Of a stretch of 64,000 nucleotides of DNA, positions 14,133 to 53,045 are shown piece after piece (within the stretch, counting starts at the first letter, position 1; each line of letters opens with the position of its first letter). The stretch comes from Bradyrhizobium diazoefficiens (GTDB lineage: Bacteria > Pseudomonadota > Alphaproteobacteria > Rhizobiales > Xanthobacteraceae): NCBI RefSeq assembly GCF_016612535.1, contig NZ_JAENXS010000002.1:1364001-1428000 (forward strand). The letters are read 5' to 3'. Below the pieces are notes generated by a model. The model saw only the letters and a list, made by a program, of their open reading frames with translations, ran no database searches and was not told the DNA's origin. The position numbers and the translations under genes were made by a program.

Positions 14133-14158
14133 AACCCGAGAGACCACGGTGCGGTTCC
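14133..14158 (-). promoter_or_regulatory. Candidate EcfG-type promoter (flavodoxin gene)
   Basis: Minus strand reads GGAAC (14158-14154), 17 bases, GGTT (14136-14133), 33 bases before the ATG at 14100. It matches the alphaproteobacterial general-stress sigma EcfG consensus GGAAC-N16/17-CGTT with one change in the -10. Confidence 0.5.
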
Positions 14159-14209
14159 TCGGCGCGATCTTCGCCGATCCCTTCCGCGATCAGGACGCGA
14201 ATTCGCGTT

Positions 14210-14732
14210 CTCGCGGCGCGGCACGCCCGAGCTTTACCTCAATGCTTCACCCTCAATTGAAAGAGGGTGCAGGGAAGACCGGGTGCCGGCTGGCACCCGC
14301 GGTCCACTGTGCGAAATTGCAGATAGAAGAACTGCACAGCGGCACACAGGTGAAGCCAAAACATCCGGCCTTCCCTGCGCAGTGGTTTGACGGCTTATGT
14401 CGTGATCTCCCCGGGGAGCGATGCACTATTGCCCCCGTCGCCTTGCGGATGACTGATGCGCATGTCCGGTCGGACAGCACGCATCACCACAGACTTGGCG
14501 CACAGGCTCCGGGCGCCAGGACCACACGATTTTGCCGTACGCCGATCACACCGGTCGTGCGCGCGACAGCCTCGCTCACGGTTGCCCGCCCTGCAAAACC
14601 CTTCGCGCCGATGTGACCCACGCCCACCGCAATCCAGCCCGCGTTCGTGACGATCGCGATCGCCCCTCTTCCTTGGACCGGAGTAAGCGACACATACGCC
14701 GTTTCCGAATTTCGGTAAAGTGGAATATTTTT
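14210..14732. repeat. Dispersed structured repeat, copy 1
   Basis: This gene-free stretch between 14101 and 14924 is filled by a repeat that recurs at 53449-54066. Shared blocks are: a GCCCGAGCTTT head; a long inverted repeat (14270-14283 with 14365-14378, one mismatch) enclosing a GGGTGCC...GGCACCC hairpin; an ACGGCTTATGTCGT hairpin; a CTCCCCGGGGAG palindrome (14407-14418); the block CAGGACCACACGATTTTG (14517 on); and a 43-base tail (14690-14732) containing CCGAATTTCGG that is identical to copy 2. Several short open frames run through it but none looks coding. Confidence 0.8.
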
Positions 14733-14924
14733 GGCCGCGCACATTGCCCCACGCCTAGCGTGTTTTGTCCGTCAGGTAACGCAAGGTCTTGTAGCCCAAA
14801 ATCGAACCAAAACTGCCAAAGAGGTAGATTCCGATACCGCCGGGCGCGGTATCGCACCGGGTATGCAGATCCCGCGCAGCAAGTCAGGACCGGCCCGGCT
14901 TGAGCCGGGACGGTCCCGAGCGGA

Positions 14925-15173
14925 CTACCACTCCACCCAATCATCACCGCGCCAGTAGCCTCGCCCCTCGTGCTCGCGGAACGTGATACCCGGACCAGCC
15001 CTCCAGGAGTCCTCGTGAATAATCACGCCAGCACCAGGTGGATAAGCGTATCGCTCGTGAGTGTGCCAACAAACGTCGCCGGTGCACACCACCGCCGCCG
15101 ATGCGCCCATTGTGGAACCTATCAACAGTCCGCAGCAAACAGCCGCTGCTCGAAGACTGCTGAATGGGGTCAT
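14925..15173 (-). CDS. Small secreted protein of unknown function
   Basis: An 82-residue protein. The ATG at 15173 is chosen because AAAGGAGAA sits just upstream and the first 27 residues form a clear signal peptide (RAAAVCCGLLIGSTMGASA). The mature part is short, with CTGDVCWHTHERY containing a likely disulfide, and ends in tryptophan/glycine-rich WRGDDWVEW. No family was recognised. A GGAAC-N16-CATT motif lies upstream (15206-15230). It resembles the other small secreted genes at 16162 and 38598 in design, not in sequence. Confidence 0.6.
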   Translation of the reverse strand: MTPFSSLRAAAVCCGLLIGSTMGASAAVVCTGDVCWHTHERYAYPPGAGVIIHEDSWRAGPGITFREHEGRGYWRGDDWVEW

Positions 15174-15205: not shown

Positions 15206-15230
15206 AATGCTGCATTGGCAGCGACGTTCC
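15206..15230 (-). promoter_or_regulatory. Candidate EcfG-type promoter (small secreted protein)
   Basis: Minus strand GGAAC (15230-15226), 16 bases, CATT (15209-15206). The -10 differs at one position from CGTT. It lies 33 bases before the ATG at 15173. Confidence 0.4.
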
Positions 15231-15410: not shown

Positions 15411-15435
15411 GGAACCTCTGCTTTCGATTTTGGTT
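15411..15435 (+). promoter_or_regulatory. Candidate EcfG-type promoter (CBS gene)
   Basis: GGAAC (15411-15415), 16 bases, GGTT (15432-15435), 20 bases before the CBS-protein ATG at 15456. One mismatch to the -10 consensus CGTT. Confidence 0.5.
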
Positions 15436-15968: not shown

Positions 15969-15993
15969 GGAACGACTGCCAAGGACCAATGTT
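15969..15993 (+). promoter_or_regulatory. Candidate EcfG-type promoter (glycine/tyrosine-rich protein)
   Basis: GGAAC (15969-15973), 16 bases, TGTT (15990-15993). The next gene on this strand starts at 16162, leaving a leader of roughly 160 bases, which also holds a CCCCG/CGGGG hairpin followed by TCTTCTTTT (16052-16090). Confidence 0.4.
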
Positions 15994-17351: not shown

Positions 17352-17376
17352 AACAGGCCCGATGCAGCGCAGTTCC
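17352..17376 (-). promoter_or_regulatory. Candidate EcfG-type promoter (hemerythrin)
   Basis: Minus strand GGAAC (17376-17372), 16 bases, TGTT (17355-17352), 65 bases before the hemerythrin ATG. It is back-to-back with the plus-strand site at 17392, the two -35 boxes forming a palindrome GTTCCTGA...TCAGGAAC. Confidence 0.5.
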
Positions 17377-17391: not shown

Positions 17392-17416
17392 GGAACCGAC
17401 CCTGCCGGGAAGTGTT
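17392..17416 (+). promoter_or_regulatory. Candidate EcfG-type promoter (cytochrome c operon)
   Basis: GGAAC (17392-17396), 16 bases, TGTT (17413-17416), 30 bases before the cytochrome c ATG at 17447. Mirror image of the hemerythrin site. Confidence 0.5.
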
Positions 17417-20336: not shown

Positions 20337-20361
20337 GGAACTCGCTTCGTGCTGATGCGTC
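20337..20361 (+). promoter_or_regulatory. Candidate EcfG-type promoter (MDR-oxdC operon)
   Basis: GGAAC (20337-20341), 16 bases, CGTC (20358-20361). The -10 lies only seven bases before the ATG at 20369, so transcription from it would give a nearly leaderless mRNA or the real start is further in. Confidence 0.45.
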
Positions 20362-22896: not shown

Positions 22897-23802
22897 ATGC
22901 CATTATCGCTTGGAACCATCATCGGGCGCGGATGTTCGTTCCGGGCATCAGAGGAAACCCCGAGGCGCGATTTGCCGGTCCAGCGTTCGCTCGCCACCTC
23001 CACAAGGCGGCCCCGCGCGACAGCCGCGGGATGGATCATCGCGCTCATGGCCTGGGTCGCACTATCGCCGGCACAGGCAGCTCTCACCACTTCGCAGCTC
23101 GAACAGACTACCCTCGCGCCACACGTCAACGCGCAGCTTCCCATGCAGCTGCGTCTCAGCGATGCGAACGATCGCGCGGCACCGCTTGCGAGCTGGCTCG
23201 GGGCCGTCCCGACCGTGTGGATCCTGGCCGACTACACCTGCGAAACGCTGTGCGGGCCGGCGATCTCAATCGTCTCGAACGCGCTGGCCGATACCGGCCT
23301 CAATGCCGGCAAGGATTTTCGGCTCATCGTTGTCGGCTTCGATCCCAAGGACACCGCCGCCCAGGCGCTGGCCATGAAGAATGCGCAGCTGAGCCCAAGG
23401 AACGGACTCTCTGAACACACCGTGTTCCTGAGGACCGCTGCACCGGATGTTGGCGCCTTAACCGACGCATTCGGCGTGCGGCCCGTCTACGATCGCGAGC
23501 ATGACCAATTTGCCCACCCCGCCGCCGCCTTCGTCGTGACGCCTGACGGGCGGATTTCTCGCACGCTCTCGGCCCTTGCGGTCGATGCCGCCAGCCTGCG
23601 GCTTGCGCTGGTCGAGGCGGGCCAAGGTCACGTCGGCGGCTGGAGCGACCAGATTCATCTACTCTGCTACGGCTTTGATCCCGCGAGCGGGACCTATACG
23701 CTCGCCGCGCGGCGGCTGCTGATCGCGACGTCCTCCGTCAGCATCGTCGTCCTTGCCCTGCTGATCGGGCTTCTGTTCCGGCGCGAGCACGCCACCAGAT
23801 AG
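22897..23802 (+). CDS. SCO1/SenC-family copper chaperone-like protein
   Basis: A 301-residue membrane-tethered thioredoxin-fold protein. The metal motif CETLC (near residue 113) matches SCO CxxxC. An N-terminal signal/anchor (WIIALMAWVALSPAQA) and a C-terminal hydrophobic helix (about residues 270-292) flank the domain. SCO proteins load copper into the CuA centre of cytochrome oxidase subunit II, here plausibly coxB at 31290. It is convergent with actF and the two coding regions overlap tail-to-tail by 65 bases. Confidence 0.8.
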   Translation: MPLSLGTIIGRGCSFRASEETPRRDLPVQRSLATSTRRPRATAAGWIIALMAWVALSPAQAALTTSQLEQTTLAPHVNAQLPMQLRLSDANDRAAPLASWLGAVPTVWILADYTCETLCGPAISIVSNALADTGLNAGKDFRLIVVGFDPKDTAAQALAMKNAQLSPRNGLSEHTVFLRTAAPDVGALTDAFGVRPVYDREHDQFAHPAAAFVVTPDGRISRTLSALAVDAASLRLALVEAGQGHVGGWSDQIHLLCYGFDPASGTYTLAARRLLIATSSVSIVVLALLIGLLFRREHATR

Positions 23803-24850
23803 CGCCAAAAGGTTCCCCCTCCTCGGACCGCGTGAGAACCGCATCGAATGCCAGCCAGAAGATCGTGCCGAGGCAGAGCCCGGCCGCAATCAGCATTGCG
23901 CCCGTGATAGCCACGGACAGCCCACGAATTGCCGGCAGGATGAGGATCGCGGCTTCGAGCCAGCGCATCGCCAGCGTCAGTCCGCACAGCGCCAGCAGCC
24001 AATACGGGTCCGATCGCACCCGGCTGCTGAGCAGCGCGCAGAAGGGAAAGACGAACTGCCCGAATGAGAGCGCGGCGAGGACGAACTGCCAGCCGTTCTT
24101 CGATCGCGCCAGATACCAGGTGACCTCCTTGGGGATATTGCCCGACCAGATCACGATGTACTGCATGGCGTGGAGATAGCACCACAGCAGCAGTGCCGAG
24201 AGCAACAGGCCGCTATAGCCGCGGCTCGGGCCGATCTGTCGCATCGACAACAGGCCGGCCGCGATGACGAACGCGGTACCGTTGACCAGCAGGAAGCTGA
24301 GAAAGATCAGACCATAGATCGAGGAGTGAAATTCCGGTTCCAGCGATTCCAGCCAGTCGACCCCGGCGAACGAGACGGTGAGAGTCCACACGATCGATCC
24401 GACCGACGCGGCGCGCACCATGGCCTCGTCGTTGCGCCAGGCGCGCCGGAGCCATTGGGCGAGCGCGATCCAGATCAGGAAATAGAGCGCGGTCCGCAGC
24501 AGGAAGAACCACGGCATGAACCAGCGCGCCTTGAACGGCGGCAATGAGGAGCCGTCCGCGATCGCCGGATAGATCTCCCTTGTGAACAGCAGGATGGGAA
24601 TGAAGGTCAGCGCGACGACGGGCAGGATGCCAGTGGTCGCGACGAAAACCGTGTGCAGCGTCTCGGTCCAGCGCCGGCGTACCAGATAGCTGGTCATGAA
24701 GACGATCAGCGCTCCGATCGGAATGGCGCCCCAGGCGCTCCAGGCGACGAGATAGGCCGCCGTGGTCGACCTGACGTCGATAACGAAGCCGGCGATCAGG
24801 ACCAGACCCGACACCGCCGCCACCCCCCTCCTCGCGCTGCGACTCGTCAT
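23738..24850 (-). CDS. actF: Alternative complex III subunit ActF
   Basis: A 370-residue polytopic quinol-site subunit related to NrfD/PsrC. The start at 24850 overlaps the actE stop by four bases; the longer open frame upstream is not coding. About ten hydrophobic segments are seen (for example ALIVFMTSYLVRRRW, RWFMPWFFLLRTALYFLIW). ActF and ActC are the two paralogous membrane subunits of the complex that oxidises menaquinol or ubiquinol and reduces cytochrome or an oxidase directly. Its 3' end overlaps the convergent SCO gene. Confidence 0.85.
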   Translation of the reverse strand: MTSRSARRGVAAVSGLVLIAGFVIDVRSTTAAYLVAWSAWGAIPIGALIVFMTSYLVRRRWTETLHTVFVATTGILPVVALTFIPILLFTREIYPAIADGSSLPPFKARWFMPWFFLLRTALYFLIWIALAQWLRRAWRNDEAMVRAASVGSIVWTLTVSFAGVDWLESLEPEFHSSIYGLIFLSFLLVNGTAFVIAAGLLSMRQIGPSRGYSGLLLSALLLWCYLHAMQYIVIWSGNIPKEVTWYLARSKNGWQFVLAALSFGQFVFPFCALLSSRVRSDPYWLLALCGLTLAMRWLEAAILILPAIRGLSVAITGAMLIAAGLCLGTIFWLAFDAVLTRSEEGEPFGAIWWRARAGTEARSAGQGRRC

Positions 24851-25377
24851 GGCTGGCTCTCCAGCCTGGCACGTTCGTCCGCCGGTACGTCGTCGAGCGA
24901 AGCCTGACGGCTGAGCTGAAGCGCGCGGATATAGGCAACGATCGCCCAGCGATCTGCTGGCGGCACGCGGGCCGCATAGGAATACATCGCACCATGTCCG
25001 TTGGTGATGACGTCGAAGAAGTATTGATCTTCCGCGCTGCGCAACCGATCGTCGTGATAGCTCGTCGGGCGCGGCATGCCGCGCTGGACGACCATACCGG
25101 TGCCGTCGCCGCCAGCGCCGTGGCACGGCGAGCAGAAAATGCCGAAGCGTTCGCGCCCCCGCGCCAGCAACCCGGCCGACAGCACAGGTTTCGTGTTGCT
25201 TGCCTTCTCCCGCTCCAAATCATCGCGAGCGACCGTGTTTTCCGGCGGCCGCCGCAGCACGCTGCCGCGGAACAGCGGCGCGCGCGAGTATTCGCTGTAG
25301 CGCGGCTGCTCGTCCATGTTCTGGTCACAGCCGGCGAGCAGACCGGCAAGCGCAACGAGGGCCAGCCACCAGTTCAT
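24847..25377 (-). CDS. actE: Alternative complex III mono-haem lipoprotein ActE
   Basis: A 176-residue cytochrome c. The start at 25377 gives a lipoprotein signal with the lipobox LLAGC; the frame continues upstream but overlaps actD. The haem site is CSPCH near residue 81 and a likely axial methionine lies in the GMPRPTSYHD region or later. It is held to the outer face of the membrane and passes electrons onward from ActA/B. It overlaps actD and actF by four bases each. Confidence 0.87.
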   Translation of the reverse strand: MNWWLALVALAGLLAGCDQNMDEQPRYSEYSRAPLFRGSVLRRPPENTVARDDLEREKASNTKPVLSAGLLARGRERFGIFCSPCHGAGGDGTGMVVQRGMPRPTSYHDDRLRSAEDQYFFDVITNGHGAMYSYAARVPPADRWAIVAYIRALQLSRQASLDDVPADERARLESQP

Positions 25378-25904
25378 TCCGGCACGAGCTCCACGGACAG
25401 CGCGCCGATCCCGTTGAGAAAGGCCAGCGTCTCGCTTGCGTCGAACCTGGCGTCCTCCGCGCTCACGCACAGGAAGAAGCGGTCCTTGCTGGCGCGGTGA
25501 AACCGCTCGCCGTTGAACACGGGATAGCTGAGCCGCGGCAGCCAGTTCTGCCACAGCATCCCGAACAGCATGGCGAGCGCGGAGAACAGGATGGTGAGCT
25601 CGAAAGTCACGACCGCGAAGGCCGAGACCGGATAGATCGGACGTCCCCCGACATTGAGCGGGTAGTCGAAATTCGTGAAGAACTGCATGGCGAGCGCGGT
25701 GCCTGCGCCCGCGATGGCGCCGCCGAGCCCGATGAATGAGATAGTCGGCCGCGGAAACCGCGAGATGCGATCCAACCCCTCGACCGGGAACGGCGTGAAG
25801 GCATCGAGATAGCGGTAACCGGCCTCCCTCGCCTTGCGAGTTGCCGCCAGCAGGTCCTCCGGGGTGCTGAATTCCGCCAGTGCGCCATAGAGCTGCTCAG
25901 CCAT
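25374..25904 (-). CDS. actD: Alternative complex III subunit ActD (DUF3341)
   Basis: A 176-residue DUF3341 protein with two central hydrophobic helices (about residues 55-80 and 95-120). The start at 25904 (MAEQLYGALAEF) is preferred over an ATG eight codons upstream because it fits the family N-terminus; either way the gene overlaps actC. In the complex ActD is a two-helix membrane subunit near ActF. Characteristic motifs: YRYLDAFTPFPVEGL and the C-terminal FFLCVSAEDARFD. Confidence 0.87.
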   Translation of the reverse strand: MAEQLYGALAEFSTPEDLLAATRKAREAGYRYLDAFTPFPVEGLDRISRFPRPTISFIGLGGAIAGAGTALAMQFFTNFDYPLNVGGRPIYPVSAFAVVTFELTILFSALAMLFGMLWQNWLPRLSYPVFNGERFHRASKDRFFLCVSAEDARFDASETLAFLNGIGALSVELVPE

Positions 25905-27248
25905 GCTGATGCTCCTCCTTCTCCTCATGGAGAAGCTCCTTGCTCTCGAAGATCGAGATCATGGGAACGAGCCTGATGGCGATGAGGAACGGCACGAGGA
26001 ACAGCCCAATCGTGCCGAAATAAGTCGACCAGTCCCAGAAGGTCGGCGTGAAGTGGCTCCACGACGAGACCAGGAAGTCGCGATAAAGGCTGGTGACCAG
26101 GATCATGTAGCGCTCGAGCCACATTCCGACCACGACGGACGCCGAGATCAAGAGCAGCATCCATCCGCTTCGCCGTACCCTGCGTAGCCATAGCGCCTGC
26201 AGCGGGATGAAGTTGAAGATGACGGCGCCCCAATAGGTCCAGGCGTAGGCGCCGGCGAAACGATCGACCAGCGTCTGTATTTCGTGAGGCTCACCCGAAT
26301 AAATCGCGTCGAACACCTCGAAGACGTAGCCGTACCCCGTCATCAGGCCGGTCGCGAGCAGGACCACCCCCAGCACATCGAGATGATCGTCGGTCACAAG
26401 GTTCTTCAGCCCGAACCAGGAGCGTAGCGACACTGCGATGATAGAGACGACCGCGAAGCCGGAGAAGGCCGCGCCCAGCACAAAGTATGGCGGGAAGATC
26501 GTCGAGTGCCAGCCCGGGATCTGCCCGGCCGCGAACAACAACGACACCTCGCTGTGAACGGAGACGACCAGCGGCACGGCGAGCCCAGCGGTCAAACGGT
26601 ACGCCTGCTGCCAGCGCTGCCAGTGCCTGGCCGACCCGCGCCATCCGAGCGCCGCGACGCCGAAGAAAATCTGCCAGCCGCGCCGCGTTGCGCGATCACG
26701 TGCCGCGGCTAGATCAGGGATCAGACCGGTGTACCAGAAGGCCAGCGAGACCGTCAGATAGGTCAGCACCGCCCAGATGTCCCATTCCAAAGGGCTGCGG
26801 AATTGCGGCCACACGCCCATCGTCGCCGGATAGGGCAACATCCAGTAGACGTACCAGGGCCGGCCGAGATGCAGAATCGGATAGATGCCGGCGCAGACCA
26901 CCGCAAACAGCGTCATGGTCTCGGCGAAACGATTGAGCGAATTCCGCCACTCGCTGCCGGTGAGCAGCAGCAGCGCGGAGATCAGCGTGCCGGCATGGCC
27001 GATGCCGAGCCACCAGACGTAATTGTGGATGGCGAAGGCCCAGTTGACGGGAATGTTGATGCCCCAGATGCCAACGCCGCGCGTGAACAGCTCGACCACC
27101 GAAACTATCAGCAACAACAGCAGCGCGCTCGCGACCGTCATCGCGATCACCCAGCGCCGGTCGGCCGGAAAATGCAGGGGAATGCCAGTGAGCTGCTCGG
27201 CGATGCCGCCCATGCTCTGGCGCGTCGGCAGGATCTCGGATTGCTCGC

Positions 27249-27252
<4 letters not shown>
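25897..27252 (-). CDS. actC: Alternative complex III subunit ActC (NrfD-like)
   Basis: A 451-residue membrane protein with about ten transmembrane segments, member of the NrfD/PsrC family. It is the ActF paralogue that sits under the iron-sulfur subunit and provides a quinol-binding site (INIPVNWAFAIHNYVWWLGIGHAG near residue 48-70 is the family signature, cited as a pattern; ≤20 residues: NWAFAIHNYVWWLGIGHAG). It overlaps actB by four bases. Confidence 0.88.
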
Positions 27253-30130
<2,878 letters not shown>

Positions 30131-30134
<4 letters not shown>

Positions 30135-30787
30135 CGGTGACACACGTAGCAATACGTGAGCTCGCCGAAGCGAATGCCGTCATGGGCAGCGATCGCGTCG
30201 CCCTCCCTGCGCGCATCCGCGGGCGGCGTCCACGCCATATCTGTGATGTGGTCCGGTGGACGTAGATGAGGTGCAGGATCGCGGTGGCAATCGATGCAAA
30301 ACTGCATCGTGAACGCCTTGGCGCGATAGGTCAGCGCCATCTGGTCGATACGGCCGTGGCAGTTTTCACAGCCGACGCCCTTGGCAATATGGATGTCGTG
30401 CCGGAAGAACACGTAGTCCGGCAGTTTCGCGACGCGCGTCCATGGGATCGGCGCGTTGTCGGCAAGGCTCTTTCGCACCGGTTCCAGCATCGACGCGTTG
30501 GTCCATATCTGGGAGTGACATGTCATGCAGGTCTCGGTCGGCGGGAGGCCGGCTTGCAGGCCGGCCTCGACATTGCTGTGGCAATAGCGGCAGTCGATAC
30601 CGAGTTCCCCGGCATGGTGGCGGTGGCTGAACGGCACCGGCTGATGCGGACGTATGTCGGTCTCGGTCATGTACGTCGAATGCGCGAAGCCGACAGCGGC
30701 CACGATGCTGCCGCCGGCAAGCGACAGGCCGCCGATCAGGAACAGGCGAATCCACGTGTCCGCCACAGGTGAGAATATTTGAGCCAT
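30131..30787 (-). CDS. actA: Alternative complex III penta-haem cytochrome ActA
   Basis: A 218-residue cytochrome with five CxxCH motifs: CRYCH, CMTCH, CENCH, CIDCH and CYVCH. The N-terminal membrane anchor is LFLIGGLSLAGGSIVAAVGFA. It is the first gene of actABCDEF and collects electrons from ActB. The upstream region 30788-30909 is shared with the divergent oxidase operon and holds two back-to-back EcfG-like sites. Confidence 0.9.
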
Positions 30788-30823: not shown

Positions 30824-30848
30824 AATCTGGTTGCCCGGCGTTGGTTCC
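30824..30848 (-). promoter_or_regulatory. Candidate EcfG-type promoter (act operon)
   Basis: Minus strand GGAAC (30848-30844), 16 bases, GATT (30827-30824), 36 bases before the actA ATG. Two -10 mismatches make it the weakest listed, but its -35 is in a palindrome with the oxidase site. Confidence 0.35.
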
Positions 30849-30855
30849 TAAGGTA

Positions 30856-30880
30856 GGAACACAAGCCTTAGGATCGCATT
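30856..30880 (+). promoter_or_regulatory. Candidate EcfG-type promoter (caa3 operon)
   Basis: GGAAC (30856-30860), 16 bases, CATT (30877-30880), 29 bases before the ATG at 30910. The -35 boxes of this and the act site are GTTCC-7 bases-GGAAC. Confidence 0.4.
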
Positions 30881-34472: not shown

Positions 34473-34744
34473 CGGAATGGCGGCCGCCATTTGCCCTCGT
34501 CGGAGCCTGGCTTGGCCTGCTGGTTTTGCTGGCGCTAACCGTGACTCTGGCTTACGTCCCGCTTGGGGCCGCCAACGCCGTCGTGGCGCTCGGCATCGGC
34601 ACGATCAAGGCGGGACTGGTCGCGGCCATCTTCATGGAACTGCGACATCGCAGCGGCCTCACGCTCATTTTTGCGGGCGCAGGCCTATTCTGGCTCGGCA
34701 TCCTGCTGTGGCTGGGGTCCATGGATTTCCTGACGCGGACGTGA
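34469..34744 (+). CDS. Cytochrome oxidase subunit IV-like protein
   Basis: A 91-residue three-helix protein of the bacterial oxidase subunit IV/CyoD-like family (LVLLALTVTLAYVPLG, IKAGLVAAIFMELRH). It closes the oxidase operon. Its stop is only three bases from the stop of the convergent tri-haem cytochrome gene, so terminators must lie inside the opposing genes. Confidence 0.8.
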   Translation: MTEWRPPFALVGAWLGLLVLLALTVTLAYVPLGAANAVVALGIGTIKAGLVAAIFMELRHRSGLTLIFAGAGLFWLGILLWLGSMDFLTRT

Positions 34745-35977: not shown

Positions 35978-37748
35978 TGATGAGCTGCCCGGGGTTCCTG
36001 AGATATTTGGAGCGGATGGCATCGGCCGTCCAATAGGCGAGCGCCGCAACCGTTCCGGTCGGGTTGTAGCCGGCATTTTGCGGAAACGCGCTGGCGCCCA
36101 GCACGAACAGGTTCGGTACGTCCCAGCTTTGGAGATAACGGTTGAGCGCGCTGGTGTTGGAATCCGTTCCCATGATCGCGCCGCCGCAGAGATGCGTCGT
36201 CTGGTATTTTGTGATGTCGTAGGGCGCCTTGCGGTATTCCTTGTGGACCTGTTTTGCGCCCATTGCCTGAAAGATCTCGGCGAACTTGTCGGTCAGGAAT
36301 TTGTTCTGCTTGATCTCGTTGTCGTGGAAATCCATGGTGATCCGCGCCAGCGGCCGGTTGAAGCGATCTTTGTAGGTGGGGTCGAGATCGACATAGACGT
36401 CGCGGTAGCTGTACATGCTGCCATGGACGCCGGTCCCGGGCTTGATCGCGCTCTGATAGTTCTCCTTGACGGCCTTTTTCCATGCCGCGCCCCAGAGCGG
36501 CGTACCCGGCGGCACCGGCGTGGTTTCGATCGGCCGGCCGTTAGTCTGCACATGTCCCATGTAGCCGCCGCCGACGAAGCCATGCGGCCCATGGTCAAAA
36601 TTATCGCCGTTGAACTCGTCGATGCACATTCCGATCGCGCCGGAGGCGATGAAGGGATTGAAGACAAATTTTGCCGGATCGAAGAAACTGACGACGTCGG
36701 AGATGGTCTGGTGGGTGAAATTGCGGCCGATCACGCCGGTGTTGGCCGCGGGATCATAGGCCTTGCCGATGCCTGACAGCAGCAGGAGTTGAACATTGAA
36801 GATCGTGTAGGCCGAGAGCACGACGAGGTCGGCGGGCTGCTCCCACTCGTCCCCCGCGGCATCGACAAAGGTCACGCCGGTGGCGCGCTTGCCGGAGCTG
36901 TCGAGATTGATCCGCGTGACCTCGCTGTTGTCACGGGCCGTGAAGTTGGGTTTGCGAACGAGCGCTGGCAGCACCGTGGTCTGCGGCGAGGCCTTTGAAT
37001 AGTTGCCGCAACCGAACCACTCGCAGAACCCGCAATAGGTACATGGCCCGAGCCGAACGCCGAGAGGATTCTGGTACGGCCGCGACATATTACCGGAGGG
37101 CTGCGGAAACGGCTTGTAGCCGAGATCGCGCGCCGCCTTGCCGAACAGCGTATGGCCGAACGGCTGATCCTGCGGCGGATTCGGATAGGCCCGCGCGCGC
37201 GGTCCCTCGAACGGGTTGCCGCCATCCATGATCGTGCCGTTGATATTGCCGGCCTGACCGGACGTGCCACAGAGATATTCGAACTTATCGTAATGCGGCT
37301 CGAGCTCGTCATAGGTCACGCCCCAGTCCTGGATGGTCATGTCCCCGGGCAGGAAGTTTGCCCCGTAACGCTCGGTCAGATGCGTCTTCAGCACGAAATC
37401 CGACGGCAGGAAGCGCCACGTCTCCGCGTTCCAGTGCACCCCGCCGCCGCCGACGCCGTTCGGCGGCATGAACGCACCCCAGCTTCTGATCGGCAGCGCG
37501 GCCTCGCTCATCTTGTTGCGGAAGGTGAAGGTGGTCTGGCTCGGGCTCAGGAACAGCTCGTGACGGATGCGGTAGCGCAGCTCATCAGCCGCGTAACCCG
37601 GCGGGTAGTCCGTCGCCGTATTGCGCCACGGGCCGCGCTCGATCGCAATCACGTCGAGCCCGGCGTCGGCGAGCTCGTAGGCCATGATCGAGCCGGTCCA
37701 GCCCAGCCCGACGATGACGACGTCCTTCCGCGGGAGCTTACGGGCCAT
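35970..37748 (-). CDS. GMC-family FAD dehydrogenase (gluconate 2-dehydrogenase-like large subunit)
   Basis: A 592-residue flavoprotein. The FAD dinucleotide motif VIVGLGWTGSIMAYELADAG opens the sequence, GGGGVHWNAETW lies near residue 100, and a cysteine-rich segment (CTYCGFCEWFGCG near residue 240) may hold an Fe-S cluster as in related three-component dehydrogenases. The C-terminal active-site region has HLCGGAIMGTD. It oxidises a sugar acid, sugar or alcohol in the periplasm. It has no signal peptide of its own and is probably carried by the subunit-3 Tat leader. Confidence 0.83.
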   Translation of the reverse strand: MARKLPRKDVVIVGLGWTGSIMAYELADAGLDVIAIERGPWRNTATDYPPGYAADELRYRIRHELFLSPSQTTFTFRNKMSEAALPIRSWGAFMPPNGVGGGGVHWNAETWRFLPSDFVLKTHLTERYGANFLPGDMTIQDWGVTYDELEPHYDKFEYLCGTSGQAGNINGTIMDGGNPFEGPRARAYPNPPQDQPFGHTLFGKAARDLGYKPFPQPSGNMSRPYQNPLGVRLGPCTYCGFCEWFGCGNYSKASPQTTVLPALVRKPNFTARDNSEVTRINLDSSGKRATGVTFVDAAGDEWEQPADLVVLSAYTIFNVQLLLLSGIGKAYDPAANTGVIGRNFTHQTISDVVSFFDPAKFVFNPFIASGAIGMCIDEFNGDNFDHGPHGFVGGGYMGHVQTNGRPIETTPVPPGTPLWGAAWKKAVKENYQSAIKPGTGVHGSMYSYRDVYVDLDPTYKDRFNRPLARITMDFHDNEIKQNKFLTDKFAEIFQAMGAKQVHKEYRKAPYDITKYQTTHLCGGAIMGTDSNTSALNRYLQSWDVPNLFVLGASAFPQNAGYNPTGTVAALAYWTADAIRSKYLRNPGQLINA

Positions 37749-37757
37749 GTGCGGCGC

Positions 37758-38483
37758 TCACGATTTTGCAGGGGTCCAATCCGCGCGCCCGGCGATGCTC
37801 ACGGGCGGATGCGGATAGCGTTCGTTGTGGCGATTGACCCAGTCGCGATAGTCGTAGCGGATACCGGGAAAGCCGATCATCTTCCATCCGACCATGTCGA
37901 TGTTGCCGCCGTGAACGGGATCAGCGAAGAAGCCTTCCGGTACGTCCTTCAGCAGGGCGGAGAAGAACCCCTTCGCATCGACCGTCTCGAACTTGACCTC
38001 GCCTGACTCGATTTTCCGCAACACGTCGTCCTGTGCGGCCGCATCGAGCTCCGCGAAGGATTTTCCAGCCTGGGTCGACTTGCAATGCTTGTCGAGCGCA
38101 GCCAGCGCGTTGCGATAGAGCTCGGAATGGGTCAGCGCCGATTGCGGGCCTTGCTCCTGGGTGCCTTTGGTGTGCGGTCCAAGCGTGTAATGACCCTGGT
38201 TAGAGCCGTACGGTCCCTTGAGCTGGCGATCGATGAAGACGGCGCAGCCGGCGATCTTGCCGCCAGGCGTCTCCGGGTCGGGCGGGATAATGCGATCGAC
38301 GATCGCTTCCATCGCGCGAGCTTCATCAAGCGTAAAGAACTGCCACGGACCCGGCCGCACCATCTCTGGCGCAGAGTTCGGATGCGGCGCCCACGGCACA
38401 CGATTGTGGATCACGGTCGCGCGCGTCAGGGAGGTGGTTCCGACAAGCCAGGCCGCGAGTGCGAGAAACGTTCTGCGCTGCAT
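37758..38483 (-). CDS. Gluconate 2-dehydrogenase subunit 3-like protein
   Basis: A 241-residue protein beginning MQRRTFLALAAWLVG, a twin-arginine leader. The body matches the small gamma subunit family (FFTLDEARAMEAIVDRIIPP, then FADPVHGGNIDMVGWKMIGF near residue 185). It exports and stabilises the FAD subunit. It is the first gene of the three-gene operon and has an exact EcfG-type site just upstream (38510-38534). Confidence 0.85.
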   Translation of the reverse strand: MQRRTFLALAAWLVGTTSLTRATVIHNRVPWAPHPNSAPEMVRPGPWQFFTLDEARAMEAIVDRIIPPDPETPGGKIAGCAVFIDRQLKGPYGSNQGHYTLGPHTKGTQEQGPQSALTHSELYRNALAALDKHCKSTQAGKSFAELDAAAQDDVLRKIESGEVKFETVDAKGFFSALLKDVPEGFFADPVHGGNIDMVGWKMIGFPGIRYDYRDWVNRHNERYPHPPVSIAGRADWTPAKS

Positions 38484-38509: not shown

Positions 38510-38534
38510 AACGTGAGCCGGATTTGGATGTTCC
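38510..38534 (-). promoter_or_regulatory. EcfG-type promoter (GMC dehydrogenase operon)
   Basis: Minus strand GGAAC (38534-38530), exactly 16 bases, CGTT (38513-38510), 26 bases before the ATG at 38483. Exact match to the consensus. Confidence 0.7.
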
Positions 38535-38902: not shown

Positions 38903-38927
38903 AACGACCAGCAACGACCGGCGTTCC
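38903..38927 (-). promoter_or_regulatory. EcfG-type promoter (small secreted protein)
   Basis: Minus strand GGAAC (38927-38923), 16 bases, CGTT (38906-38903), 28 bases before the ATG at 38874. Exact match. Confidence 0.7.
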
Positions 38928-39658: not shown

Positions 39659-41980
39659 TTAGCTGGCCGAGATCGGCATCTCGCCGCCCTCGATGATCTC
39701 GGGCGGCACATCCTTGAAGAGCCGCACCGGAACGGACTTTGCCGCCGGCACCTTGCTGCCTTCCGCGTAATGCCACAGGGGAATAAGCCCGTTGCATTCG
39801 GGATAGTAGCCGGCAATGCTCCGGCGCGGGATGTCATAGGGCACGACCTGGAGCTCGCTCAGGCTGCGCTCGACGCCGTCACTGGCCTCCGTCACCAACG
39901 TGACGGTGTCTCCGGATTTCAGCCCGTCCGCTTCCATATCAGCCGGATTCATCAGCACGACGTAACGGCTGCCTTCGATGCCGCGGAAGCGGTCGTCTTC
40001 GGTGTAGATCGTCGTGTTGAACTGCCCGTCGGCGCGCATGGTCATCAGCTCATAGACGCCATCACTCTCCTTTGGCGGCGCGAACGCCGACTTTGGCACG
40101 GTGAAGTTGGCCTTGCCGTTCGGCGTCTTCCACTTGCGCTCGCGCGCCGCCAGCGGCCGCGGAAATCCGCCGGGCTCGAACATGCGCTTGTTGAAATCCT
40201 TGAACTGGTCGGGATAGGTGCGCTCAATGGCATCCCTCACGCGCGAATAATCGGCGATCCAGCCGTCCCAATCGACTTTAGAGTTTGCCTTCAGCGTTGC
40301 TTTGGCAAGTCCGGCGATGATCGCAGGTTCCGACAGGGCATGCTGGGTCACCGGCTTGCGCTGCCCGCGCGAGCCGTGAATGCATGCGGTTGAGTCTTCC
40401 ATCGACACGGCCTGCGCACCGCTGGCCTGCTCGTCGATCTCGATGCGGCCGAGACATGGCAGGAGATAAGTCACCTCGCCCGGCACGATGTGGCTGCGGT
40501 TGAGCTTGGTCGCGATTTGCACCGACAGACGCAGGCCAGACCAGGCCGGCTCCATCAGCGATCGCTCCGGGATCGCGCGCACGAAATTGCCGCCGAGACT
40601 GATGAAGCCACGGACGTCGCCCTTCAAGATGCCCTCGCAGGCATCCACCGTCGAAAGACCATCCCAGCGTGGCGGCTCAAAGCCGTAGAGTTCGGCGAGC
40701 CTGTCGAGCGGCACGAGCTTTGTCTTCTCGGAGATCCCGACCGTACGTTGGCCCTGGACATTGGAATGACCGCGGATTGGCGAGATGCCCGCGCCAGGTT
40801 TGCCGATGTTGCCACGGAGCAGCAGTAGATTGACGATCATCTTGGCCGTCTCGACTCCGTGCTTGTGCTGGGTGACGCCCATGCCGTAGTTGGCGATCAC
40901 AGCGTTGGCAGCCATATAGACATTGGCGGCCTCGAGCATCGCCATGCGCGAGAGGCCCGATGCGCGCTCGATTTCGTTCCAGTTCTGCGCGCGGCAGAAC
41001 GCGGCGAACTCCTCGTAGCCAGCTGTATGCTGGGCGATGAACTCGACATCGACCACACGCGGCCTGCCGTTCGCCTGTGCCAGATCGTCCGACTCGATCA
41101 CCGACTTGCAAATCCCGGCGATCGCCGCGGCGTCGCCGCCGACGCGGACCTGATGATATTGCGTGCTGATGCGCGTGCCGCCCGTGATCATCTGCATCGG
41201 GTTTTGCGGATTGACGAACCGCTCGAGGCCCCGCTCCCGGAGCGGGTTGAAGGTCACGATGGGCACGCCGCGCTGGGCTGCCTCCTGGAGCGGATGCAGC
41301 ATCCGTGGTGCATTCGTCGTCGTGTTGTGACCAAAGAAGAAAATGCAATCGGTGTCGCTGAAATCCTTGAGCTGCACGGTGCCGACCGGAACCCCGATGA
41401 CTTGAGGCAGGGCCACTGAAGTGGTCTCATGACACATGTTGGAGCTGTCGGGGAAATTGTTGGTGCCGTACATCCGGCCGAACAGCTGGTACATGTAGCT
41501 GGCCTCCAACGAGGCGCGGCCGGACGTGTACATGACCACCGAATGGGGATCGAGCTTGTTCAGCTCCGCGCCTATCTCGCGAAACGCCTCGCTCCAGTCC
41601 ACCGCGACGTATTTGTCGCTGACCGGATCATAGCGCATCGGATTGGTCAGCCGCCCTTGCTCTTCCAATCGATGATCGGACCAGGAGCGCAGCTCGGTAA
41701 GCGTATGCCCGGCGAAGAACTCCGGCCCGACGGTCTTGCCTGTCACCTCCCAGGCGGTCGCCTTGGCGCCGTTCTCGCAGAATTCGAACGGATGCGGGCT
41801 TGCCGGCTTGGCCCAGGAGCAGCTCACGCACATGAAACCGCCGGGCTTGTTCTGCTTCAGCAGGATCTCGCTGCCGAGGAGGGCAACCTCTTCCTGCGTC
41901 AGGATATGAACGACGGCGTTGAGCGATCCCCAACCGCCGGCGGGAGCGTTGTAATTTTCGACTTTGGCTTTCTGCCGCAT
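39659..41980 (-). CDS. YdeP/FdhF-like molybdopterin oxidoreductase
   Basis: A 773-residue member of the YdeP-type branch of formate-dehydrogenase-like molybdoenzymes. Near the N-terminus CVSCSWAKP and FCENG supply cysteines for the Fe-S cluster region; the body has the usual bis-MGD domains (YTSGRASLEASYMYQLFGR, FFFGHNTTTNAPR, SNVQGQRTVGIS) and a C-terminal nucleotide-binding barrel. E. coli YdeP is linked to acid resistance; the substrate is unknown. No signal peptide, so it is cytoplasmic. FdhD is divergently encoded next door and would be needed to sulfurate its cofactor. Confidence 0.83.
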   Translation of the reverse strand: MRQKAKVENYNAPAGGWGSLNAVVHILTQEEVALLGSEILLKQNKPGGFMCVSCSWAKPASPHPFEFCENGAKATAWEVTGKTVGPEFFAGHTLTELRSWSDHRLEEQGRLTNPMRYDPVSDKYVAVDWSEAFREIGAELNKLDPHSVVMYTSGRASLEASYMYQLFGRMYGTNNFPDSSNMCHETTSVALPQVIGVPVGTVQLKDFSDTDCIFFFGHNTTTNAPRMLHPLQEAAQRGVPIVTFNPLRERGLERFVNPQNPMQMITGGTRISTQYHQVRVGGDAAAIAGICKSVIESDDLAQANGRPRVVDVEFIAQHTAGYEEFAAFCRAQNWNEIERASGLSRMAMLEAANVYMAANAVIANYGMGVTQHKHGVETAKMIVNLLLLRGNIGKPGAGISPIRGHSNVQGQRTVGISEKTKLVPLDRLAELYGFEPPRWDGLSTVDACEGILKGDVRGFISLGGNFVRAIPERSLMEPAWSGLRLSVQIATKLNRSHIVPGEVTYLLPCLGRIEIDEQASGAQAVSMEDSTACIHGSRGQRKPVTQHALSEPAIIAGLAKATLKANSKVDWDGWIADYSRVRDAIERTYPDQFKDFNKRMFEPGGFPRPLAARERKWKTPNGKANFTVPKSAFAPPKESDGVYELMTMRADGQFNTTIYTEDDRFRGIEGSRYVVLMNPADMEADGLKSGDTVTLVTEASDGVERSLSELQVVPYDIPRRSIAGYYPECNGLIPLWHYAEGSKVPAAKSVPVRLFKDVPPEIIEGGEMPISAS

Positions 41981-42013: not shown

Positions 42014-42038
42014 AACCTGAGAAGCGCTCGCTGGTTCC
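42014..42038 (-). promoter_or_regulatory. Candidate EcfG-type promoter (ydeP-like gene)
   Basis: Minus strand GGAAC (42038-42034), 16 bases, GGTT (42017-42014), 33 bases before the ATG at 41980. Paired back-to-back with the fdhD site. Confidence 0.55.
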
Positions 42039-42047: not shown

Positions 42048-42072
42048 GGAACCTTCGCGCGCATCGCGCGTC
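42048..42072 (+). promoter_or_regulatory. Candidate EcfG-type promoter (fdhD)
   Basis: GGAAC (42048-42052), 16 bases, CGTC (42069-42072), 26 bases before the fdhD ATG. The two -35 boxes form GGTTCC-9 bases-GGAACC. Confidence 0.5.
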
Positions 42073-43178: not shown

Positions 43179-43205
43179 ATCTGACGCTCCTGATTGCGTG
43201 CGATC

Positions 43206-46190: not shown

Positions 46191-46283
46191 CGATTCTCCT
46201 TTTGCCGCGTGAATGCGCGGCCGGGCGCGCCTCCGTGGACGCAAACCACAGCGGTCGCCACCGAGCCGGTATGCTGTGCGGCC

Positions 46284-48041
46284 TCAGGTAATCTCGCGGA
46301 CGACGTCAGAGGCAATCGTCCAAGCGATCTTCTTGGCTGCCGGTGTGCCGCGAGCCAGCGACTCCGCAAAGTTCTTGACCTGCTTCATGGTCGCCTTGGG
46401 CGGCATTGGCGGCTCATGCGGGTCGACGGTCGCCTCGATCAGGACAGGGCCACGCATATTAAGTGCTTCGCGCAGCGTATCGCCGCAGCGCTTGGGATCG
46501 TCGATGCCGAAGGCGTTGACGCCGAAGCCGCGCGCCACAGCGACGAAGTCGATCGGCTGGAGATCGCAGACATATTCCGGGTTGCCCAGAAACACCATCT
46601 GCTCCCACTTGATCTGACCGAGCGCGTTGTTCTTGATCACGACGATCTTCACATCGAGACCGTACTTGACGCAGGTCGCGAGTTCCCCCATCAGCATGGT
46701 CAGGCCGCCGTCACCGACGAAGGCCACAACTTGCCGGCCTGGATGCGCAACCGCAGCTGCGATTGCGTAAGGCAGGCCGCAGGCCATCGTGGCCAAATTG
46801 CCCGAGCACGAGAACATCATGTTCCCGCGCATGATCAGATGACGCGCGATCCAGGTGGTGATCGTGCCCGAGTCGGTCGACACGATCGCATCGTCCGTGA
46901 GCAGCTTGTTGAGCTCATGGGCGACGACCTCGGGCTTCATGGGCTTGTCCGTCCGCGTGCCGCGCTCGGTCATCAATGCTGTCCACTCCTTCATGCCGGC
47001 CTGGGCCGTCTCCAGGAATGAGCGGTCGTCGCGGTAGTTCAACCGGGGCAGCAGCGCCTGCAACGCCTTTCCGGTATCGCCCACGAGACCCGCCGCAACG
47101 GGATAGCGCAGGCCCACACGCATCGGGTCGAGCTCGATCTGCACGGCCTGTGCCTGAGCCGGCTTCGGATAGAACTCGATATAGGGGAATGAGCTGCCGG
47201 CAATCAGCAGCGTGTCGCAGCTTTCCAGCGCCTCCTGCGCCGGCTTGGTGCCAAGCAACCCGATGCCGCCCGCCGAGAATGGGCTGTCGTCGGGGACGAC
47301 ACCCTTGCCGAGCAGCGGCTTGATCACCGGCGCTCCGAGACGCTCCGCCACGGCCAGCACCTGTTCACGCGCGTCAAGCGCGCCGCGGCCGGCGAGGATT
47401 GCCGTCTTCTTGCCCGCGTTGAGGATTTCTGCGGCACGACCGAGTTGCTCCTCACTCGGAGCCTGCGCGGAACGGGCCATCAGATCCGGCACGTGATGCG
47501 GGATGTTGCGCTCCGATCGCGTGCCGGCGCTGACGGGTTGGGACTGCATGTCGACGGGCAGCGTGACGTGCGCGACGCCGCGATAGGCGAGCGCCGTGCG
47601 GCAGGCCAGTTCGACCACGTTCTCGACGTGCTGCGGCCCCATGATGCGGCTGTTGTAGACGCAAACATCCATATAGAGCTTGTCCAGTTCCACATCCTGC
47701 TGGGTGAAGGTGTGAAGCAGGTCGTGGAATTGCAGTCCGGTGATCGCAAGCACCGGCTGTCCATCGAGCTTGGCGTCGTAGAGGCCGTTCAGCAGGTGAA
47801 TGCCGCCGGGGCCGGAGGTCGCAATGCAGACGCCGAGCCGCCCGGTCCACTTGGCATAAGCGCACGCGTTGAACGCCGCGGCCTCTTCGTGCCGCACCTG
47901 GATGAATTTGATCCGGTCCTGGCGCGTACGCAGCGCCTCGATGATGCCGTTGATCCCGTCGCCCGGGATTCCGAACACGGTGTCTACGCCCCAGTCGAGC
48001 AGTGTCTCGACCAGAATGTCTGATGCAGTGGGAGATGCCAT
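46284..48041 (-). CDS. Pyruvate oxidase-like thiamine-diphosphate enzyme
   Basis: A 585-residue enzyme of the PoxB/acetolactate synthase family. The catalytic glutamate is in QVRHEEAAAF (near residue 51), and the ThDP-binding motif GDGGLTMLMGE ... IKNN lies near residues 440-470. FAD-type central domain from about residue 190. It probably oxidises pyruvate to acetate and CO2 and delivers electrons to quinone, bypassing pyruvate dehydrogenase. The C-terminus lacks an obvious PoxB-style amphipathic membrane helix. An exact EcfG-type site is at 48083-48107. Confidence 0.8.
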   Translation of the reverse strand: MASPTASDILVETLLDWGVDTVFGIPGDGINGIIEALRTRQDRIKFIQVRHEEAAAFNACAYAKWTGRLGVCIATSGPGGIHLLNGLYDAKLDGQPVLAITGLQFHDLLHTFTQQDVELDKLYMDVCVYNSRIMGPQHVENVVELACRTALAYRGVAHVTLPVDMQSQPVSAGTRSERNIPHHVPDLMARSAQAPSEEQLGRAAEILNAGKKTAILAGRGALDAREQVLAVAERLGAPVIKPLLGKGVVPDDSPFSAGGIGLLGTKPAQEALESCDTLLIAGSSFPYIEFYPKPAQAQAVQIELDPMRVGLRYPVAAGLVGDTGKALQALLPRLNYRDDRSFLETAQAGMKEWTALMTERGTRTDKPMKPEVVAHELNKLLTDDAIVSTDSGTITTWIARHLIMRGNMMFSCSGNLATMACGLPYAIAAAVAHPGRQVVAFVGDGGLTMLMGELATCVKYGLDVKIVVIKNNALGQIKWEQMVFLGNPEYVCDLQPIDFVAVARGFGVNAFGIDDPKRCGDTLREALNMRGPVLIEATVDPHEPPMPPKATMKQVKNFAESLARGTPAAKKIAWTIASDVVREIT

Positions 48042-48082
48042 GGCGCCTCGTCCGTGATTTCAACCCGCCCTCTTGATCGAAG

Positions 48083-48107
48083 AACGGATAGTCGCCGGGA
48101 GCGTTCC
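48083..48107 (-). promoter_or_regulatory. EcfG-type promoter (pyruvate oxidase-like gene)
   Basis: Minus strand GGAAC (48107-48103), 16 bases, CGTT (48086-48083), 41 bases before the ATG at 48041. Exact match to the consensus. Confidence 0.7.
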
Positions 48108-48148
48108 TACCGACCTTCGACGAAGATGCAGCCGGCTTCGATCCCCAA

Positions 48149-48174
48149 GGAACCCTCTGGTGCCGCGCGTGGTT
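48149..48174 (+). promoter_or_regulatory. Candidate EcfG-type promoter (SDR gene)
   Basis: GGAAC (48149-48153), 17 bases, GGTT (48171-48174), 23 bases before the ATG at 48198. Divergent from the pyruvate oxidase site. Confidence 0.5.
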
Positions 48175-48197
48175 GGCCCACAGAACCGGCCGGACGA

Positions 48198-51561: not shown

Positions 51562-51592
51562 GATCGGCCTCCGTGCCTCGTTGGATTGGCTT

Positions 51593-52954
51593 CTAAGCCG
51601 CCCGCCCCTGATGGGCGAGCAGGTGCGGACCAAGCTCGTCCACGCGGTTCACGCCCAACAGACCCACTGCATTCTCGGCCTCGGTCTTGAGGATCTCGAG
51701 GGCGCGGGCGGCGCCTGCAGCTCCGGCGGCACTGAGGCCGTAGAGCGGTGCACGCCCCACCCAGACGGCATCGGCGCCGAGCGCGCAGGCCTTGAGCAGA
51801 TCGGTCCCTCGTCGCACGCCACCGGACATGTAAAGCGCGATCCTATCGCCGACGATCTCGCGCGCGACCGGCAGCAGATCGAGCGGTGAGATCGTCCAGT
51901 CCAGCTGGCGGCCGCCGTGACTGCTCAGCACGACCCCGTCCACGCCGCTATCGACGGCGCGCCGCACGTCGTCGGGGCAGAGAATGCCCTTGAGGACGAA
52001 CGGCTTCTTCCAGCGTTGCCTGATCTTTGCGACCGTGTCCCAGCTCAGCGAGGTCGGCTGGTTGGCACGGACCCAGCTCGAGGCTGCGAAGAAGCTGCGC
52101 TGGTCTTTCGGCACGAAGTCGATGATGTTGGCGAAGCTCGGCAGCCCATGCGAGAGCGGATTTTCGGCGAACCAGCGCGGATGCGTCAGGCTTTCCAGCG
52201 CCGCAAGCACGGTGAGCCGGCTCTTTCCCACCTGGTTGCGACGCTGCCACTCGCGATCACCAAAGATCTGGGCATTGGTGGTCAGCACGAGAGCCTCACA
52301 CCCTGCACCGTCGGCGCGCCGGAGCAGTTCCTGCCAGATCTCATCGCCGCCAAATACATAGAGCTGCCACCAGTGGCGAACGCCAGGCGCCGCGCGGGCG
52401 ACCTCCTCCATGGTGTCGTTCGACATCGTGCTTTGCACGAATGGAACATCCGCGCGCAGCGCCGCCTCCGCCAGCAAGCTGTCGCCATGGACATGAAGGA
52501 TGCCGTTCAGACCGGTCGGGGACACCACGAGCGGCATCGCGGCGGATCGTCCAAGGATGTCGGTGGCCAGCGTGCGCCGAGACACATCGACCAGGGTTTT
52601 CGGCATGAAGCGCCAGTCGGCGAATGCGCGCTGCTCGCGAAACATCGCGGCTTCGTCCTCAGCTCCGCCCTCGAGATATTCGAGCGCAAAGCGCGGCAGC
52701 CGCTTGTGGGCCATGGCGCGGAGGTCAGCGATGGCGATCGCGCGCTGCGGATTGAAGCCGGCGTAGTAATGTCGCGCAGGCGTGCCATCGAGCTGCGCCA
52801 ATTGCGTGTGGCGATTGGACTCAAACCCGCTTCGGCGGGCTCCCCGCGCGAGTGAAGCACCCGCAACCGCCCCTGCGAGGCTTGCGAGACCACAAGCCAA
52901 CAGATGGACACTGCCGTGGTCGAAAGTGCGGCGGTTAGATATCCGATACGGCAT
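51593..52954 (-). CDS. FMN-dependent alpha-hydroxyacid dehydrogenase (LldD-like) with N-terminal anchor
   Basis: A 453-residue FMN oxidoreductase of the lactate/mandelate dehydrogenase family. Catalytic and FMN residues are seen in SPTGLNGILHVHGD, LTTNAQIFGDRE, and SSHGGRQLDW, with MSGGVRRGTDLLKACALGA as phosphate site. The N-terminal 45 residues are unusual: an NRRTF twin-arginine-like motif and a hydrophobic alanine/glycine helix, suggesting membrane anchoring or export. Start at 52954. Promoter candidate at 53021-53045; operon with GH15. Confidence 0.82.
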   Translation of the reverse strand: MPYRISNRRTFDHGSVHLLACGLASLAGAVAGASLARGARRSGFESNRHTQLAQLDGTPARHYYAGFNPQRAIAIADLRAMAHKRLPRFALEYLEGGAEDEAAMFREQRAFADWRFMPKTLVDVSRRTLATDILGRSAAMPLVVSPTGLNGILHVHGDSLLAEAALRADVPFVQSTMSNDTMEEVARAAPGVRHWWQLYVFGGDEIWQELLRRADGAGCEALVLTTNAQIFGDREWQRRNQVGKSRLTVLAALESLTHPRWFAENPLSHGLPSFANIIDFVPKDQRSFFAASSWVRANQPTSLSWDTVAKIRQRWKKPFVLKGILCPDDVRRAVDSGVDGVVLSSHGGRQLDWTISPLDLLPVAREIVGDRIALYMSGGVRRGTDLLKACALGADAVWVGRAPLYGLSAAGAAGAARALEILKTEAENAVGLLGVNRVDELGPHLLAHQGRAA

Positions 52955-53020
52955 CGCAGCCTCGCTATGATCGCCGGCTTGCCGCGGAGCGTTCGCCAAG
53001 CCCAGCTTCTGTCCCGGACA

Positions 53021-53045
53021 ATCGCGCGCAAATCGCTCTGGTTCC
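53021..53045 (-). promoter_or_regulatory. Candidate EcfG-type promoter (lldD-like operon)
   Basis: Minus strand GGAAC (53045-53041), 16 bases, CGAT (53024-53021), 66 bases before the ATG at 52954. Confidence 0.4.

Follow-up and report, generated by a model that had tools for sequence, protein, structure and literature searches.

In enterobacteria, the sigma factor RpoS drives pyruvate oxidase, a YdeP-like enzyme, DUF892/YciF proteins, catalase and trehalose genes. In the Alphaproteobacteria, what alternative complex III contributes alongside the usual bc1 complex is, to our knowledge, not settled. The closest described systems to the locus considered here are the EcfG (ECF15) regulons, governed by RpoE2 in Sinorhizobium meliloti and by EcfG in Bradyrhizobium diazoefficiens and Sphingomonas melonis. 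Genes that depend on EcfG or RpoE2 include treS (PMC8092242), those for a CoxL-type dehydrogenase and glycosyltransferases (PMC6599016), and those for a CBS-domain protein and a short-chain dehydrogenase (PMC6180224); the B. diazoefficiens regulon exceeds 100 genes (PMC8092242). Respiratory clusters in which the subunits of alternative complex III (Act) stand beside an A2-type COX1 have been described as subtype a-I (PMC6431628). Here we consider 64,000 nucleotides of B. diazoefficiens contig NZ_JAENXS010000002.1 (positions 1,364,001 to 1,428,000; hereafter the window, in whose positions all unprefixed coordinates are given). Judged from its sequence, the window covers the right half of what is very probably an accessory, modular island of about 105 kb belonging to the EcfG-type general stress response and centred on a predicted stress-induced respiratory chain. 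A first-pass annotation had placed sixteen EcfG-type promoter candidates in a 40-kb island (14133..53045); the cluster proved real, and its extent is larger, from C2:1,315,109 to 1,419,373, beyond which no further site occurs for 22 kb on the left side and 92 kb on the right.

Boxes concentrated before genes and kept in relatives

The proposed enrichment over controls is borne out. Gene calls came from our own script, for which 1.28 Mb of this genome served as training sequence. By these calls, the window holds 12 occurrences of GGAAC-N16/17-NNTT no more than 150 bases upstream of a start; the rate over that 1.28 Mb, a background that still includes the island's left half, predicts 2.55. The best of 29 permuted -35 boxes reached 4, and four wrong spacings gave 0-1. 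Over C2:1,313,000-1,420,000, the upstream regions of operon-first genes carry GGAAC-N16/17-(xxTT or CGTC) in 23 of 39 cases, against 43 of 917 elsewhere (odds 29, P 6e-19), and permuted -35 boxes give a mean of 0.38 (maximum 2) in the island and 10.2 (maximum 26) in the background. The 917 background regions come from 84 stretches of 20 kb plus the window, minus C2:1,300,000-1,430,000; since some of these stretches were picked for regulators, flanks or pattern matches, the background is if anything raised. Spacing is restricted as well, the 39 island regions holding 20 matches at N16, 4 at N17, and 0 to 2 at N10-15 or N18-22. When labels were shuffled over the sampled genome in 2000 trials, the maximum per 39 consecutive promoters was 11, compared with the 23 observed. 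Boxes precede 10 of 14 operon-first genes inside the range first annotated and 13 of 25 in the remaining island (P 8.5e-11), so the pattern is replicated outside that range. A de novo test of 5-mers (words found in at least five island regions, P values per word) ranks GGAAC top (nominal P 2e-11) with AGGAA in a near tie (3e-11), and alignment of 22 GGAAC occurrences, with nothing chosen beforehand, reveals G (0.73), T (0.86) and T (0.95) where the -10 element belongs.

The boxes are also conserved. Among 177 loci of other genomes, boxed island genes have a box at 81 of 160 homologous starts and unboxed genes at 12 of 548, counts in which some genomes appear more than once, under two or three locus ids, and in which 81 of the 160 starts belong to actA homologues, mostly non-alphaproteobacterial. 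Box columns exceed spacer columns in conservation in all six alignments made without selecting for the box (for example, 1.00 vs 0.77 for fdhD and 0.84 vs 0.56 for a pyruvate-oxidase-like gene). For actA, with identical upstream sequences removed, the box is present in 18 of 24 distinct alphaproteobacterial loci and in 1 of 54 others (P 1e-11; permuted-box averages 0.5 and 0.9, respectively). It persists among alphaproteobacterial proteins of less than 80% identity (11/17), and the boxed loci include some whose records bear the names Rhizobium, Mesorhizobium, Microvirga, Sphingobium and Nitrobacter. Neighbourhoods of actB tell the same story: the 16 alphaproteobacterial loci, with 285 genes, hold 27 sites where permuted boxes average 3.0, and the 64 other loci, with 821 genes, hold 5 against 9.3 for permuted boxes.

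For the remaining units, the homologous starts within the same 177-locus set keep the box in 10 of 11 cases for fdhD (42048), 11 of 12 for the YdeP-family gene (42014), 10 of 10 for the gluconate-dehydrogenase subunit (38510) and 15 of 18 for the pyruvate-oxidase-like gene (48083). The ten best-scoring relatives of the last (43-92% identical) are all boxed, one of them further upstream, and the next 19 loci in 2 cases. The oxidase-side box at 30856 is invariant in both aligned relatives, the box at 14133 also precedes the FMN_red-domain gene in L265, G009 and G002, and that at 20337 is kept in the sole homologous start examined (L097). Of five homologous starts for the short-chain dehydrogenase at 48210, one has a box within 200 bases; an extra gene intervenes in G009, G018 and G484, and in G484 it is this gene that is boxed.

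Sites and genes of the island

All sixteen coordinates of the first-pass annotation hold GGAAC on the implied strand, and fourteen conform to GGAAC-N16/17-xxTT. The two that depart from it, 20337 and 42048, read GGAAC-N16-CGTC; the same -10 form stands 5' of this genome's phyR, which supports CGTC as usable here. The three sites described as exact GGAAC-N16-CGTT (38510, 38903 and 48083) are indeed so, and a fourth lies at 10406 on the minus strand, outside the annotated range. The further claim that the sites sit just upstream of genes holds for 15 of the 16, which lie 7-66 bases 5' of a possible start codon; 53021 counts among them only with the longer form of its gene, the caller having taken a later start, and the small genes behind 15206, 30856 and 38903 were missed by the caller. 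The sixteenth, 15969, is the weakest, its nearest ATG being 120 or 168 bases away with no well-scoring start within 66 bases. Taken as single sites, 15969, 53021 and the scan-found 36056 can be chance matches; 36056 was rejected, as it lies inside the coding sequence of the upstream gene and is kept in 2 of 13 homologous starts. Sites and genes are as follows, with open reading frame abbreviated as ORF.

6217..10351, minus: molybdenum dehydrogenase (MoCoBD 6217-8469, 2Fe-2S 8466-8960, cytochrome c 8957-10351)
10382..10406, minus: exact GGAAC-N16-CGTT, 30 bases before the cytochrome c / 2Fe-2S / molybdopterin dehydrogenase operon (10351-6217)
14133..14158, minus: predicted EcfG-type promoter, N17, GGTT, before FMN_red-domain gene 13024-14100
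15206..15230, minus: predicted EcfG-type promoter, CATT, 32 bases before an 82-residue ORF (14925-15173) whose N-terminus looks signal-like by eye
15411..15435, plus: predicted EcfG-type promoter, GGTT, before CBS-domain gene 15483-15905
15969..15993, plus: EcfG-type site, TGTT, before a small ORF with ATG at 16114 or 16162
17352..17376, minus: predicted EcfG-type promoter, TGTT, before hemerythrin gene 16601-17287
17392..17416, plus: predicted EcfG-type promoter, TGTT, before cytochrome c 17447-17845 and a 745-residue protein 17854-20091
20337..20361, plus: predicted EcfG-type promoter, CGTC, before Zn-alcohol dehydrogenase 20369-21304 and cupin 21318-22523
23738..30787, minus: alternative complex III operon (ActA-like multihaem cytochrome 30131-30787, ActB-like Fe-S subunit 27249-30134, NrfD-like 25897-27252, ActD 25374-25904, cytochrome c 24847-25377)
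30824..30848, minus: predicted EcfG-type promoter, GATT, of the act operon
30856..30880, plus: predicted EcfG-type promoter, CATT, before small gene 30910-31263 and then the oxidase operon
31290..34744, plus: A2-type cytochrome c oxidase (COX2 31290-32231, COX1 32228-33835, COX3 33828-34472, and 34469-34744)
34748..38483, minus: gluconate-2-dehydrogenase-like enzyme (subunit 3 37758-38483, GMC flavoprotein 35970-37748, cytochrome c 34748-35947)
38510..38534, minus: exact GGAAC-N16-CGTT, predicted promoter of 37758-38483
38903..38927, minus: exact GGAAC-N16-CGTT, 28 bases before a 92-residue ORF (38596-38874) whose N-terminus looks signal-like by eye
39659..41980, minus: FdhF/YdeP-family molybdopterin oxidoreductase (TIGR01701 over cut-off, under the YdeP equivalog cut-off)
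42014..42038, minus: predicted EcfG-type promoter of the YdeP-family gene
42048..42072, plus: predicted EcfG-type promoter, CGTC, before fdhD 42099-42923
46284..48041, minus: thiamine-pyrophosphate enzyme, nearest to pyruvate oxidase models, all under cut-off
48083..48107, minus: exact GGAAC-N16-CGTT, predicted promoter of 46284-48041
48149..48174, plus: predicted EcfG-type promoter, N17, GGTT, before short-chain dehydrogenase 48210-49241
53021..53045, minus: EcfG-type site, GATT, 21-66 bases before the long form of FMN-dependent dehydrogenase 51593-52954
55373: candidate EcfG-type site from the motif scan, 86 bases before an OsmC gene

The A2 assignment of the oxidase was correct: COX1 carries YSHPAV, which we take to mark the A2 type, and it adjoins Act subunits recognised by the ActD Pfam family, NrfD, the Fe-S subunit and the multihaem cytochrome. 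The left half of the island contributes boxed units for DUF892, an alpha-amylase-family enzyme (probably TreS), Mn-catalase, a short-chain dehydrogenase, an A1 oxidase (GHPEV), an HbpS-like protein, a pyrroloquinoline quinone (PQQ)-type dehydrogenase, a formate/nitrite-transporter-family protein, and inositol-phosphate synthase followed by glycosyltransferases. In the right half, the 745-residue protein 17854-20091 gives a weak, below-cut-off CarboxypepD_reg match in Pfam and no NCBIfam family, and the act operon gene 23738-24814 has no Pfam match. Between the box-rich halves runs a stretch of unboxed genes (-2473 to 4113), one of which is a Proton_antipo_M membrane protein by profile search; the others appear hydrogenase-4-like by eye. 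Three small ORFs with signal-like N-termini stand behind EcfG-type boxes (14925-15173, 16162-16461 and 38596-38874) and, searched as somewhat longer ORFs, gave no Pfam match; similar small ORFs also follow boxes in the relative G027. A 70-residue ORF at 22524-22736 matches, at 81%, part of a boxed 202-residue gene of G009 (44209-44817 in the stretch starting at 5,520,001), and is either a shortened copy or a case of a missed start.

These contents suggest an alternative path for electrons. Periplasmic dehydrogenases of the Mo, GMC and PQQ types would feed cytochromes c, quinol would be oxidised by alternative complex III, and both flows would end at the A2 oxidase, with the A1 oxidase of the left half also taking part. 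The pyruvate-oxidase-like enzyme may serve as an outlet for overflowing carbon and as a source of electrons, and YdeP/FdhD, Mn-catalase, the DUF892 proteins and the probable TreS would be made together with this path, which protection against peroxide and osmotic stress would accompany.

Regulators and alternative readings of the boxes

The genome possesses a phyR-nepR-ecfG locus, outside the island, in which back-to-back EcfG-type boxes lie between phyR and nepR (L013:8659-8801; -10 elements CGTC for phyR and, read by eye, AATT for nepR). The EcfG consensus given in PMC6599016 and PMC8103513 matches the island boxes. Together with motif recovery, conservation and the actA contrast, the presence of phyR, nepR and ecfG makes the EcfG-type promoter reading strong in silico. 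We infer that EcfG binds these boxes: under stress, PhyR would be phosphorylated and would remove NepR, and EcfG thus freed would fire the island promoters together. Between the two halves lies a CheB-CheR-PAS-HWE kinase followed by a single receiver with PFVFATGY, presumably the FAT GUY motif (L015:9850-13361; window -10150 to -6639). FAT GUY receivers and such HWE kinases feed PhyR in Sphingomonas melonis (PMC5898713), and by analogy the island pair might signal to PhyR locally.

Roughly extrapolated from 1.6 Mb of sampled sequence, the excess over permuted boxes puts about 160 EcfG-type promoters outside the island and about 23 inside, so that roughly one eighth of them would occupy 1.3% of the genome. 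The first-pass annotation had spoken of one contiguous stress regulon; what the counts bear out is a dense part of a regulon, with 16 of the 39 operon-first genes unboxed and some 160 promoters elsewhere. The same genome holds a second, smaller cluster at C1:425644-462408, where 6 of 12 consecutive operon-first promoters have EcfG boxes.

Several points weigh against reading the stretch as an EcfG-dependent island. Its edges were set with sites already seen, its gene starts come from our own caller, and the 16 genes just mentioned lack a box at the called start, two of them (31290 and 51593) having one before an earlier small gene or an earlier start. Counted over the genome regardless of position, the motif is no more frequent than its reversal (94 matches, forward plus reverse, vs 122; 328 vs 454 for a looser form), so the signal is one of location before genes. 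Six of the 24 distinct alphaproteobacterial act operons are without a box, including those of Methylobacterium, Altererythrobacter and one Microvirga. Outside the genus or in a class-wide sample, 7 of 20 relatives show the YdeP-family box, where permuted boxes average 0.79 and reach 5 at most, and a single genus supplies three of those seven; for the gluconate-dehydrogenase operon the figure is 3 of 14. Conservation being partial here, we extend a class-wide claim to the act operon only. The regions that hold the modules in G009, G018 and G484 are not box-rich (2/83 and 6/65, 8/115, and 5/65 operon-first genes, respectively). Finally, an EcfG-like paralogue (C2:2121521) and other ECF factors exist in the genome, so that the acting sigma factor is not fixed.

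This last point opens the way to an alternative that we consider improbable without dismissing it, namely that these are real ECF promoters read mainly by another factor, either the paralogue or one of ECF26 type, and that the island falls outside the core stress response. The genome has 14 Sigma70_r2 matches, the EcfG-like paralogue among them, and of the 40 targets of RpoE6, an ECF26 factor of Sinorhizobium meliloti, 27 are also RpoE2 targets (PMC6180224). None of the 14 matches falls within the island, however, and like boxes stand between phyR and nepR. Moreover, a -10 GTT at N16 is the EcfG form, whereas the ECF26 motif is given as GGAATA/GT (PMC6180224) and EcfF of Bradyrhizobium japonicum uses GTAAC-N14/15 (PMC3420878); as both differ from the island boxes, EcfG fits best. 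It is highly unlikely that the back-to-back GGTTCC/GGAACC pairs serve a transcription factor as palindromic operators and are not -35 boxes. Some divergent pairs are tight enough to invite the idea, with 8 and 10 bases between GGAAC ends (30848/30856 and 42038/42048), but the seven divergent-pair distances range over 8, 10, 16, 31, 42, 71 and 271 bases, and we rejected the operator on this variable spacing; unpaired sites are common besides, and a -10 element regularly follows at N16/17. Matches arising by chance in GC-rich DNA, or motif picking, would suit the position-blind counts, but are scarcely credible beside a positional enrichment that was set against permuted, mis-spaced, other-region and shuffled-label controls, and beside conservation.

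A modular accessory island and its place among known systems

The island's genes are accessory and recur in different combinations. In a search of window positions 30131-48300 against 116 other Bradyrhizobium genomes, the block from actA to gluconate dehydrogenase is nearly whole in at least four and its first part is found in at least three, and the YdeP/FdhD block recurs at 77-85% identity in at least 15. G009 combines act with YdeP and has the pyruvate-oxidase block 2.6 Mb away, G484 and G018 combine act with pyruvate oxidase, and G009 and G018 share blocks only, not the whole island. ActB is scarce in the class, with long matches in 5 other genomes of a 385-genome alphaproteobacterial sample. 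Box-rich neighbourhoods occur in G027 (11/45 operon-first genes) and G002 (8/27), where the N-termini of some genes suggest Ku-, LigD- and DUF892-like products. No tRNA was found in eight stretches (integrases and flanking repeats were not searched for), and there is no clear break in base composition, the guanine-cytosine content in 5-kb steps running from 0.59 to 0.65 against 0.63; no single insertion is therefore shown. The EcfG-type island has probably grown by collecting self-contained modules, each with its own EcfG promoter.

What this means for biology can be put at two levels. A stress-sigma box before act in 18 of 24 distinct loci offers alternative complex III a testable role in Alphaproteobacteria, respiration under general stress. 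The island also points to the assembly of stress regulons from modules that carry promoters with them, a process that may bear on differences among rhizobial strains in surviving drought and salt. We lean, by a modest degree, towards a broader generalisation, in which rhizobial stress genes would accumulate in accessory islands of interchangeable EcfG-promoter modules, act and the A2 oxidase would be reserved for stress across much of the Alphaproteobacteria, and the island would have its own sensor pair. Among the openly accessible papers searched, none mentions alternative complex III together with EcfG, or pyruvate oxidase together with EcfG, and in wider searches of that literature no entry among those listed was recognisable, from its title and the opening of its abstract, as an account of such an island.

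The likeness to the RpoS stress genes and stress islands of enterobacteria would be one of function; the sigma factor and signalling chain are unrelated, and we claim no regulatory homology. With the EcfG regulons of Sinorhizobium meliloti, B. diazoefficiens and Sphingomonas melonis the island has in common its -35 and -10 elements, spacing and start distance, the core regulators are likewise present, and treS, CBS-domain, short-chain dehydrogenase and CoxL-type dehydrogenase genes are shared classes. In what was consulted of that literature, no packing of some two dozen EcfG promoters into a single accessory region is described, nor is alternative complex III named among the targets. The subtype a-I cluster resembles the island in setting Act subunits beside an A2-type COX1 and in being scant in Alphaproteobacteria, and the available portions of its description treat such clusters in terms of oxygen and not of a stress sigma factor (PMC6431628). 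In the island, by contrast, act and the oxidase form two divergent units that face away from back-to-back EcfG-type promoters, amid stress genes.

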